Source: Labilibaculum antarcticum
GTDB lineage: Bacteria; Bacteroidota; Bacteroidia; Bacteroidales; Marinifilaceae
Assembly (NCBI RefSeq): GCF_002356295.1
Contig: NZ_AP018042.1
Span: 5,054,361 to 5,118,360 of the forward strand
Length of the DNA stretch: 64,000 nt
Direction of reading: 5' to 3'
Of this stretch, positions 8,779-12,646 are shown piece by piece (the stretch's first letter is position 1; the number at the start of each line of letters is the position of its first letter). Position numbers and translations under genes: made by a program. The notes beneath the pieces are model-generated. The model did no database searches, was not told the origin of the DNA, and saw only the letters and a list, made by a program, of their open reading frames with translations.

Positions 8779-8810
8779 AAAAAAGCCTCACATTAGTGAG
8801 GCTTTTTTTA
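8779..8810 (+). terminator. Intrinsic terminator after ftnA
   Basis: AAAAAGCCTCAC pairs with GTGAGGCTTTTT around a 4-nt loop and is followed by further Ts. Confidence 0.9.
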
Positions 8811-8842: not shown

Positions 8843-8850
8843 TACTTTTG
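8843..8850 (+). promoter_or_regulatory. Candidate promoter of the small exported protein and secA
   Basis: TACTTTTG is an exact TAnnTTTG match just after the ferritin terminator. Transcription would begin within a few bases of the ATGs at 8857 and 8863, giving an almost leaderless mRNA. No comparable box was found between 9247 and 9349, so this may also be the secA promoter. Confidence 0.5.
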
Positions 8851-8856
8851 GATTCT

Positions 8857-9246
8857 ATGGATATGAACAGGTATTTAATAGTAGTATTTTGTGTGCTCAC
8901 AGGTTGTGCAGCGGCAGTTCCTATGGCCAATGGCCAGGAAATGTCTGTTGATCATCATCTGTTTGCCGAATGGTACGCCGATCATATTCAAAATTTGGAT
9001 GAATCCTATTCATCGACAATACTTGCTCATGTAGAACAGGATCAATTGGTTGGGAAATACATTCCAAGTATTGAAAACTTTTCATTACTTGAGAATTTAC
9101 CTAAATTCCCTGTAGCAGATCAAGTTATTCCTTTGGAAAGCATTCCAATATCACAAACATTGCAATGTTTTTCAATCTTACCAGAAGTTATTCTTAGTAC
9201 AATACCTGAGGGGGATTTTCATATAAGAGCCCCGGTTTTAGCCTAA
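8857..9246 (+). CDS. Small exported protein upstream of secA; candidate SecM-like arrest peptide
   Basis: No homologue is recognised. The 129 residues begin with a short charged start (MDMNR), a hydrophobic core (YLIVVFCV) and a lipobox-like LTGC placing Cys17 as a possible lipidation site; signal peptidase I cleavage a little later is the alternative. The rest has no obvious domain. The last residues are GDFHIRAPVLA, with IRAP encoded at 9223-9234, twelve bases before the stop. In E. coli, SecM has the same layout: signal peptide, about 170 residues, C-terminal GIRAGP stall, directly upstream of secA. RAPP/RAPG arrest peptides of other phyla share Arg-Ala-Pro. The gap to secA is 103 bp and contains hairpins. 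The ATG at 8863 is an alternative start; the TTG at 8848 overlaps the promoter box and is rejected. That it is exported is fairly clear; the arrest function is inference. Confidence 0.75.
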   Translation: MDMNRYLIVVFCVLTGCAAAVPMANGQEMSVDHHLFAEWYADHIQNLDESYSSTILAHVEQDQLVGKYIPSIENFSLLENLPKFPVADQVIPLESIPISQTLQCFSILPEVILSTIPEGDFHIRAPVLA

Positions 9247-9252
9247 CTTTCC

Positions 9253-9320
9253 TTTCCTGTTTTCCATAGGAAATTTCACTCGTTATATTATTATTCGTTT
9301 TCAACTTTATAGTTGAAAAC
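9253..9320 (+). promoter_or_regulatory. Hairpins between the small exported protein and secA
   Basis: TTTCCT (9253-9258) can pair with AGGAAA (9268-9273) just after the upstream stop codon. GTTTTCAACT (9297-9306) and AGTTGAAAAC (9311-9320) form a perfect 10-bp stem with a TTAT loop, ending 29 bases before the secA ATG. The second hairpin is followed by ATTTTAC rather than a T run, so it is a poor terminator and could instead control secA translation. Confidence 0.6.
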
Positions 9321-9349
9321 ATTTTACACATCGAATTCAACAAATCAAA

Positions 9350-12300
9350 ATGGGTTTTATAGATACTACATTAGGTAAATTATTTGGTAATAAGTCAGAT
9401 AGAGACCTTAAAGATTTGACCCCTTATTTAGGGCAGATTAAAGCAGAATATGAAAGAATCACAGTTTTAAGTACTGATGATCTTCGTGGAGAATCAGATA
9501 AATTAAAGCAACATATTCAGGATTTCATTAAAACGGAACAAGACGAAATATTAAGTCTTAAAGAAAAGGTTGAAAATGGCGATGTCTCAATCAATGAGAG
9601 AGAATTAATCTACGATCAGATTGACGAAATCGAAAATAAAATTGACGCTAAAATAGAAGAAGTACTGGACGAAATTCTTCCAACTGCTTTTGCTATTGTA
9701 AAAGATACAGCACGCAGATTTACCGAAAACGAAGAGCTGGAAGTAACAGCATCTAAATTTGATAGAGATTTAGCTCCCTATTACGATAACATACAAATAG
9801 ATGGTGATACTGCGGTCTATTTTAATTCATGGACTGCAGGTGGAACTGAGATAACCTGGGACATGATTCATTACGATGTTCAGTTGATTGGTGGTACTGT
9901 TCTTCATCAAGGAAAAATTGCAGAGATGGCAACAGGTGAAGGTAAAACTCTTGTGGCTACCTTACCTGTATTTTTAAATGCATTAACTGGTAGAGGTGTT
10001 CACTTGATTACTGTGAATGATTACCTTGCAAAACGTGACTCGGAATGGATGGGACCAATCTACCAATTCCACGGACTATCTGTTGACTGTATCGATAAAC
10101 ACTCTCCAAATTCAGATGAACGAAGAAAAGCTTATGCATCTGATATTACTTTTGGAACAAATAATGAGTTCGGTTTTGATTACCTGCGTGATAATATGGC
10201 AACAAATCCTAAGGATTTGGTTCAACGCCGTCACAATTATTCGATTGTCGATGAAGTTGACTCGGTTTTGGTTGATGATGCACGTACTCCATTGATTATT
10301 TCCGGTCCAATTCCAAGAGGTGAGCATCAACAGTTTGATAATTTGAAACCTAAGGTTCAAAATTTGGTGAGAGCTCAAAATGAATTGGTAATGAAGATTT
10401 TTACCGATACTAAAAAATTACTGAACAGCGAAGATAAAAAGGAGCTTGAGGAGGGTGCAAAATTATTGCTTAGAACCTTTAAAGGTTTGCCAAAAATGAA
10501 GCCACTTATTAAATTCTTAAGTGAGCAGGGAAATAAGGCCATTCTTTTGAAAACCGAAAATTTCTATATGCAGGAAAATAGTAAAAATATGCACATCGTT
10601 ACTGATGAGCTATATTTTATTATTGATGAACAGCATAATTCTATTGAACTTACTGATAAAGGAATCGACCTGCTTAGTGCTGATGCTGAAGATTCAGGTT
10701 TCTTTGTGTTACCTGATATTGGATCAGAAGTTGCCGTTATTGAAAAATCAGATCTTTCGGATGAAGAAAAATTAGCTAAGAAAGATGAAATGATTCAGGC
10801 TTACTCTGTAAGATCAGAAAGGGTTCATACAATTAACCAACTATTAAAGGCATATACTCTTTTCGAAAATGATGTAGAGTATGTTATGATGGATGGTAAG
10901 GTGAAAATTGTAGATGAGCAAACAGGGCGTATTATGGAAGGCCGTCGTTACTCAGATGGTTTACACCAGGCAATTGAAGCTAAAGAAAATGTAAAAGTAG
11001 AGGCTGCGACTCAAACATTTGCCACCATTACTCTTCAAAATTACTTTAGAATGTATCAGAAGCTTTCTGGTATGACTGGTACTGCGGAAACAGAAGCAGG
11101 TGAGCTTTGGGATATCTATAAATTAGAAGTTGTTGTAATCCCAACCAACCGTCCAATTATTCGTGACGACCGTGAGGATTTAGTCTATAAAACAAAACGA
11201 GAAAAATATTCAGCGGTAATTGATGAAATTGTTGATCTGGTAAAAGCTGGTCGTCCGGTTTTGGTAGGAACAACATCAGTTGAAATTTCTGAATTATTAG
11301 GTCGTATGCTTAAGATTAAAGGAATTAAGCACAACGTACTGAATGCAAAATTACATCAGCGCGAAGCAGATATTGTAGCGGAAGCAGGTCAATCAGGAAC
11401 TGTAACCATTGCTACAAATATGGCTGGTCGTGGTACTGATATTAAGCTAACCAAAGCAGTAAAAGCTGCTGGTGGTTTGGCAATTGTTGGTACCGAGCGT
11501 CATGATTCCCGTCGTGTTGACCGTCAGTTACGTGGTCGTGCCGGTCGTCAGGGAGATGTTGGATCTTCTCAATTCTTTGTGTCTTTGGAAGATGATTTGA
11601 TGCGTTTATTTAGCTCAGATCGTATTGTGAAGTTGATGGACAAAATGGGACTGAAAGAGGGTGAGGTAATTCAGCACAGCATGATTAGCAAATCGATAGA
11701 GCGTGCCCAGAAAAAAGTGGAAGAGAATAACTTCGGTATTCGTAAACGATTATTGGAGTACGATGATGTAATGAACTCTCAGCGTGAGGTTATTTATAAA
11801 CGTCGCCGTCATGCCTTATTTGGTGAGCGTATTCAGGTTGATATTGCCAATATGATGTTTGATTTGTCTGAATTGATTGCAAATGAATATCATGGTGGTG
11901 ATTTTGAGGAGTTTAAACTAGATTTAATTCGTACTTTATCAACCGATTCTCCAATCAGTGAAGAGGAATTAATGAAGGAGAAACCAGAAGTAGTTACTGA
12001 GAAGATTTACCAAGTGGTTTTAGATAACTACAAGCGAAAAGTGGAATCAATTAGCAAACAAGCTTATCCGGTAATCAAAAATGTATACGAATCCAAAGCG
12101 GAAATATATGAGAATATTGTGGTTCCATTCTCCGATGGTTCTAAAATGTTTCAGGTAGTAACCAACTTAAAGAAAGCATACGAGAGTAAGGCTGAAAACT
12201 TGGTTCGTTCTTTCGAGAAGGTATCTATTCTTGCAACCATTGATGATGCTTGGAAAGAGCATTTGCGTGAGATGGATGACTTGAAACAATCTGTTCAGAA

Positions 12301-12646
12301 TGCTTCTTACGAACAAAAGGATCCATTGTTGATCTACAAATTTGAATCGTTCAATTTGTTTAAAACGATGATTGAAACTACAAATAAGAGTGTTGTTAGC
12401 AGCTTAATGAAAGGTCATATTCCATTATCGGATCCTGAAGATATTCGTAAGGCCGAAGAGCGTAAAAGAACCGATTTAAGCAATTTAAAAACTACCAAAG
12501 AAGAAATTGGCGGAGGTCGGGGCAAATCGGAGCCAAAAAAGATGGAGCCAGTTCGTGTCGCTCAAAAAGTGGGTAGAAATGAACCTTGTCCTTGTGGTAG
12601 TGGTAAAAAATACAAACAATGTCATGGAAAAGGAGTTCCTGCTTAA
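9350..12646 (+). CDS. secA: Preprotein translocase ATPase SecA
   Basis: Motor ATPase that drives unfolded preproteins through SecYEG. At 1,098 residues it is the long Bacteroidota form, with an insertion after the first ATPase motifs (about 350-440). Walker A is MATGEGKT near residue 193 and Walker B is [15 protein letters not shown] near 301. The second motor half carries GRGTDI and [11 protein letters not shown]. The C-terminus has a zinc-binding SecB/ribosome contact ([14 protein letters not shown], about 1081). The small exported protein lies 103 bp upstream and lgt follows after a terminator. No own promoter box is visible, so co-transcription with the upstream gene is likely. Confidence 0.98.

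Follow-up and report, generated by a model that had tools for sequence, protein, structure and literature searches.

Described Sec monitors and the reading frame upstream of secA

The closest described relatives of the locus considered here are the RQH arrest peptides defined by Fujiwara et al. 2024 (PMC10987492), where uA_RQH_Bacteroidales_1 and uA_RQH_Bacteroidales_2 were tested. The second of these arrests B. subtilis ribosomes in vitro and the substitutions R102A and P104A abolish the arrest; no toeprint at RAPG was seen on E. coli ribosomes (PMC10987492). The link between arrest and induction was demonstrated for uDF_RQH_Enterobacterales (PMC10987492). A uA_RQH peptide is a small protein of unknown function encoded immediately ahead of secA, secDF or yidC; it has an N-terminal secretion signal or transmembrane segment, a conserved C-terminal RAPP-like motif and an arrest site that is more than 30 residues away from the signal.

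The window analysed here is a stretch of 64,000 nt from the 5.72 Mb, single-contig genome of Labilibaculum antarcticum. It contains an upstream open reading frame (uORF) directly before secA, whose product starts MDMNRYLIVVFCVLTGC and ends GDFHIRAPVLA, and its stop codon is separated from the secA ATG (9350) by a gap of 103 nt. The original prediction had described this locus as a 129-residue ORF with an LTGC signal and an HIRAPVLA end, 103 bp before secA, and its coordinates and anatomy are correct (Table 1). The product matches no Pfam and no NCBIfam family, and Rfam gave sub-threshold matches only, mostly over the upstream terminator. Judged from its sequence, MDMNRYLIVVFCVLTGC is a secretion signal with a conserved hydrophobic core and a lipobox-like motif, at which the product may be lipidated. 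The C-terminus (VILSTIPEGDFHIRAPVLA) carries a RAPP-like motif that is conserved across 45 homologues; in the Labilibaculum product only two residues follow RAPV. About 100-110 residues lie between signal and arrest site, which is within the range of Sec monitors (PMC10987492).

Table 1. Coordinates of the uORF-secA locus, in positions of the window
Feature	Position	Strand	Details
Terminator of the upstream ferritin-like gene (intrinsic)	8779..8808	+	13-bp stem, 4-nt loop, U-rich; -18.4 kcal/mol, z = -5.8
Bacteroidota -7 element TAnnTTTG	8843..8850	+	TACTTTTG; 6 nt between its end and the uORF start codon
uORF, candidate Sec-monitoring arrest peptide	8857..9246	+	129 aa; stop codon TAA
Conserved N-terminal export signal	8857..8922	+	codons 1-22, MDMNRYLIVVFCVLTGCAAAVP
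Lipobox-like motif of the uORF signal	8896-8907	+	L14-T-G-C17
IRAPV codons	9223..9237	+	Ile123-Val127; Pro126 = 9232-9234, Val127 = 9235-9237
Spacer hairpin 1	9253..9273	+	8 bp, 9253-9260/9266-9273; 93.5% of cells paired, 1 double-sided pair
Spacer hairpin 2	9297..9320	+	perfect 10 bp, 4-nt loop, 9297-9306/9311-9320; 95.6% of cells paired, 4 double-sided pairs
secA	9350..12646	+	1098 aa; SecA search also run in related genomes

The two tested Bacteroidales peptides share with the uORF the position directly before secA, the occurrence in GTDB Bacteroidales, the N-terminal export signal and the C-terminal RAP. The Labilibaculum peptide differs from them in its RAPV motif, its length of 129 aa and the position of its arginine (R124). 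The Butyricimonas-like members of the family (108 aa) carry R102-A-P104-G105, i.e. R102 and P104 are exactly the residues mutated in uA_RQH_Bacteroidales_2. On these sequence features, the uORF family appears to be uA_RQH_Bacteroidales; it was thus apparently already described in 2024 and is not a new class. RAPV is among the query motifs of that paper, so the Labilibaculum members may be in its lists. The Labilibaculum uORF would be a new or unlisted arrest peptide, set apart by the invariant, leaderless-type position of its promoter and by a RAPV that is fixed in the genus. In the main text of PMC10987492, lipoproteins are not mentioned.

The comparison can be extended to better-known arrest systems. 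E. coli SecM is, like the uORF product, a signal-peptide protein cotranscribed ahead of secA, with a C-terminal ...IRA- and a presumed role in Sec monitoring. However, the uORF lacks both FxxxxWIxxxxGIRAGP and the F/W/I spacing, and it has RAP-V in the place of RAG-P; moreover, no overall sequence similarity and no hairpin hiding a Shine-Dalgarno sequence are seen, and a leaderless start is predicted. ApcA of Rhodococcus (RAPG, yidC2) and ApdA/ApdP (RAPP, secDF) resemble the uORF in a P-site RAP, a variable A-site residue and conserved ends (PMC7897499), but their target genes are different, there is no overall similarity, and RAPV is native to the uORF while G105V impairs ApcA. The stop-codon-stalling Bacteroidota uORFs before secA or secDF also have C-terminal Pro motifs, whereas in the present family RAP is followed by 1-16 further residues. 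Finally, the mycobacterial leaderless poly-cysteine attenuator sORFs (Canestrari 2020, as cited in PMC13236596) are reportedly also leaderless regulatory short ORFs upstream of an operon, but they sense cysteine supply through codons and not export via nascent-chain arrest.

We consider it probable that the uORF product monitors Sec as a RAPP-like (RQH) arrest peptide, and the uORF-secA transcript that encodes it would be leaderless, with 0-2 nt ahead of codon 1. The lipobox-type signal would target the nascent chain to the Sec machinery, and elongation would pause once Ile-Arg-Ala-Pro is at the peptidyl-transferase centre, where the P site holds Pro126 and the A site Val127. Once SecA/SecYEG engage and pull the signal, the pause would be released and the protein exported; when export is limiting, the pause would persist and secA expression from the shared mRNA would rise. 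In this scheme we infer the leaderless start, the stalling, the release by force and the induction of secA. The uORF-secA pair is a clear, testable candidate for a Sec-feedback switch in cultured marine Bacteroidota.

Conservation of the peptide and the RAPV motif

A uORF homologue lies directly before secA in 45 of the 53 family genomes in which the secA upstream region was inspected. The named homologous loci (Labilibaculum, Marinifilum, Ancylomarina, Butyricimonas, Odoribacter) belong to what we take to be the GTDB family Marinifilaceae of GTDB Bacteroidales. No uORF precedes secA in the other 8 genomes (L035, L037, L042, L051, L052, L058, L059 and L060), which suggests loss or gene movement. 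A profile search of 295 Bacteroidales genomes gave convincing matches in the family itself only, and in about 70 secA upstream regions of other families no RAP-ending signal ORF was found with a crude signal filter. An ORF with an IRSPNAA ending before secA in other families was discarded: it is no uORF but the C-terminal part of a phosphatase-like protein that is longer than 450 aa. In the L. antarcticum genome itself (L173, L174), secDF and yidC have a 142-aa ORF and a pyrG-like gene ahead of them, and no similar signal-bearing uORF lies upstream of either.

Two side observations concern the same upstream regions. In other Bacteroidales families (L106, L110, L111, L112, L120, L123) a large phosphatase-like protein precedes secA, and its C-terminus has a strikingly conserved LRIR[SP]PNA about 100 nt upstream of secA. 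Within the family, genus g16 contains one genome with the uORF (L057) and two that lack it (L051 and L058).

The homologues are conserved at both ends, M[DE]MN[RK]YLI...C and IRAP, and drift in the middle, with lengths varying from 106 to 131 aa. By mean majority-residue fraction, residues 1-22 score 0.90, residues 23-60 0.61 and residues 61-120 0.48. IRAP, with 0.97, is more conserved than any other tetrad beyond the N-terminus. The test on which the original prediction had staked itself, i.e. an IRAP end that is kept among relatives while the rest drifts, was thus passed (0.97 vs 0.48 for residues 61-120). The same course is seen in the pN/pS values of the Labilibaculum sequences: 0.04 for codons 1-22, 0.33 for 23-60, 0.48 for 61-118 and 0.06 for IRAPV, the last in codons that vary synonymously (pS 0.58). 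Since the RAP codons vary synonymously (AGA/CGA; GCC/GCT/GCA/GCG; CCG/CCT/CCA), selection acts on the peptide.

Cys17 of the signal is kept in 26 of 27 aligned homologues, the exception being L082, which has Tyr and no lipobox. LTGC in Labilibaculum and Marinifilum and LTAC in Ancylomarina fit the lipobox pattern [LVI][ASTVI][GAS]C, and the Butyricimonas/Odoribacter-like sequences have [VMF]AGC, some with an atypical first residue. One could read the uORF product as a small secreted lipoprotein with an envelope function of its own that is incidentally co-transcribed with secA, its conserved C-terminus being a binding and not an arrest motif. The near-invariant Cys in a lipobox-like [ST][GA]C or AGC, the strong purifying selection that codons 1-22 are under and a leader-free promoter belonging to the uORF itself are all in keeping with this reading. 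But pN/pS reaches 0.48 in the mature middle, which drifts and changes in length while IRAP stays fixed near the C-terminus, the homologues always adjoin secA and have no known domain, and a same-numbered relative (uA_RQH_Bacteroidales_2) arrests ribosomes in vitro; we regard such a function as very unlikely.

We return to the arrest peptide. Judging from these patterns, members of the uORF family very probably halt the ribosome while export is slow. The motif itself is RAPG in 28, RAPV in 11, RAPE in 5 and RGPS in 1 of the 45 homologues, so that RAP is found in 44 and RGP in one, and the RAPV carriers are all 11 Labilibaculum-like genomes. Several Odoribacter/Butyricimonas-like loci (L036-L057) end in RAPE or carry extra residues past RAPG. 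Points that count against the Sec-monitor reading are the Val at the fourth position, the missing RAPG toeprint of uA_RQH_Bacteroidales_2 on E. coli ribosomes, the modelled secA start that stays the same under a stall, the 8 of 53 genomes without the uORF, and the presence of some RAPE and RGPS.

By analogy with ApcA, ApdA and ApdP (PMC7897499, PMC10951233), the predicted stall places Pro126 in the P site, with Val127 as the A-site residue. An A-site Pro is essential for ApdA/ApdP. ApcA accepts Gly, Ser, Ala and further residues at this position, but its arrest in B. subtilis is impaired by G105V; for ApdP, Val is the sixth best A-site residue (PMC7897499). Since the valine that impairs ApcA is sixth best in ApdP, arrest at RAPV is plausible, and by the same analogy it could be weaker or shifted. 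It is conceivable that the Labilibaculum stall has moved off RAP/V altogether, with Leu128, Ala129 and the stop codon as possible sites, or has lost much of its strength, given that the RAPV combination works poorly in ApcA and just two residues lie past it. However, the Val is fixed in 11 genomes, and the nine whose codons were compared use GTT, GTA and GTC for it, so that RAPV does not look like a decaying motif; together with the pN/pS of 0.06 over IRAPV this is what would be expected under selection for RAPV. The last two residues, in contrast, vary (LA, FA, VA, LS), and we find a shifted or much weakened stall rather doubtful. The original prediction of a Sec monitor stalling at Arg-Ala-Pro finds strong comparative support in the fixed synteny with secA, the conserved signal and IRAP, the drifting middle and the shared transcript, with RAPV as the putative stall motif. 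The locus makes it testable which A-site residue is allowed in RAP-type arrest, as Val is fixed in the genus here, yet impairs ApcA.

Promoter position and the predicted transcript start

Since the ferritin-like gene upstream ends in a strong terminator, a new transcription unit starts with the uORF. A terminator consensus scan misses this site, probably because its Ts pair inside the stem. The -7 element TACTTTTG between terminator and uORF was overlooked in the original prediction. Each of the 45 homologous loci has a TAnnTTTG box whose end lies 4-6 nt ahead of codon 1 (35 at 6, 8 at 5 and 2 at 4 nt, a count that includes L017, at 6 nt, whose contig begins just upstream), and the spacing is held even in the seven loci that have GTG as codon 1. 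In Flavobacterium johnsoniae, 4-5 nt separate the -7 element from the transcription start (PMC6847099). Taken together, the two distances predict a leader of 0-2 nt and a start of the uORF-secA mRNA at about 8855-8857, which makes this mRNA, judging from the promoter position, apparently leaderless.

Such a position is exceptional in the window. Only 13 of its 47 genes have a -7 box within 120 nt; the uORF is the only gene with a box as close as 6 nt, the nearest box being 16-47 nt away in the other 12. Leaderless mRNAs are a minority in Bacteroidota, with 5.5% in F. psychrophilum (PMC9723704), and 5' UTRs under 10 nt make up about 3.7% in B. thetaiotaomicron (PMC7366714). The absence of a TAnnTTTG box between uORF and secA, on which the original prediction had relied, is confirmed: none occurs in the window from the uORF start to secA. 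A separate secA promoter in the spacer was rejected, the box being missing there in 44 of the 45 loci and found in one. In the literature searched, we found nothing that joins "leaderless" with a Sec monitor, and no description of either the apparently leaderless messenger or the native RAPV motif of this locus.

Spacer hairpins and the route from stall to secA

To our knowledge, the mRNAs of Bacteroidota do without Shine-Dalgarno sequences. The second question raised by this locus is how an arrest peptide might raise a downstream gene in such a phylum, on an mRNA that apparently begins at its own start codon. The spacer contains the perfect 10-bp hairpin and the weaker one past the stop codon that had been predicted originally, and both fold as described. 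Hairpin 1 sits just past the point to which the front of a stalled ribosome is predicted to reach, and hairpin 2 is about 29 nt upstream of the secA start. In nine Labilibaculum sequences 94.7% of the cells are paired, as opposed to 40-55% in slid controls; five pairs have double-sided changes, and none of 500 shuffles scored as high. Hairpins are predicted in Marinifilum too, and in some relatives the uORF-secA spacer is only 24-55 nt long.

The original prediction had the stall open a hairpin and expose secA, as in SecM. In a full version of this mechanism, a hairpin or a pairing with the RAP codons would hide the secA start and the stalled ribosome would free it. The covarying hairpins speak for it, and so does the RNAalifold structure of Labilibaculum, in which AGAGCCC (RAP codons) pairs with GGGUUUU (secA codons 2-3). 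But this pairing is weak, mostly absent outside Labilibaculum and drawn from columns that coding keeps fixed. Both hairpins lie past the footprint, and the spacer of some relatives is no longer than given above. Moreover, RNAfold partition functions were modelled in silico for 28 homologues with the stall footprint, with a queue, with a terminating ribosome and at control positions. They gave no consistent change, and the stall footprint left the accessibility of the secA start unaffected, the change staying within -0.08 to +0.07. Because accessibility is unchanged by the footprint and the RAP-start pairing is weak and unshared, we do not endorse the hairpin step; a SecM-like freeing of a hidden secA start was set aside as a candidate, and we hold the full mechanism to be unlikely. 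In terms of the modelling, a stall-to-secA link of the SecM type, with the opening of a start-hiding hairpin, is not supported.

The stall may act on secA through termination, through protection of the mRNA or through kinetic folding. The stalled ribosome might alter premature termination or protect the leaderless mRNA from decay, and in this way provide more secA message. The position of the promoter right at the uORF, the covariation of hairpins that lack terminator tails and the lack of start-site occlusion would agree with such an effect, but a terminator scan of the spacer gave no terminator-like site or attenuator, and we regard it as possible, if somewhat unlikely. As for the arrest peptide as a whole, we tentatively propose, as a possibility that we would not call probable, a leaderless Sec monitor with a lipoprotein signal and a native RAPV that controls secA without hiding a Shine-Dalgarno sequence, the ribosome initiating right at the 5' end of the mRNA and its pause acting via termination, decay or another route suited to Bacteroidota.

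A last observation concerns the nucleotide sequence of the signal. The codon of Leu14 (8896-8898) is CTC in all 9 compared Labilibaculum sequences and in most of those from Marinifilum, and none of the 95 Leu codons of secA is CTC. The stretch TGTGTGCTCACA around Leu14 may be constrained at the nucleotide level.
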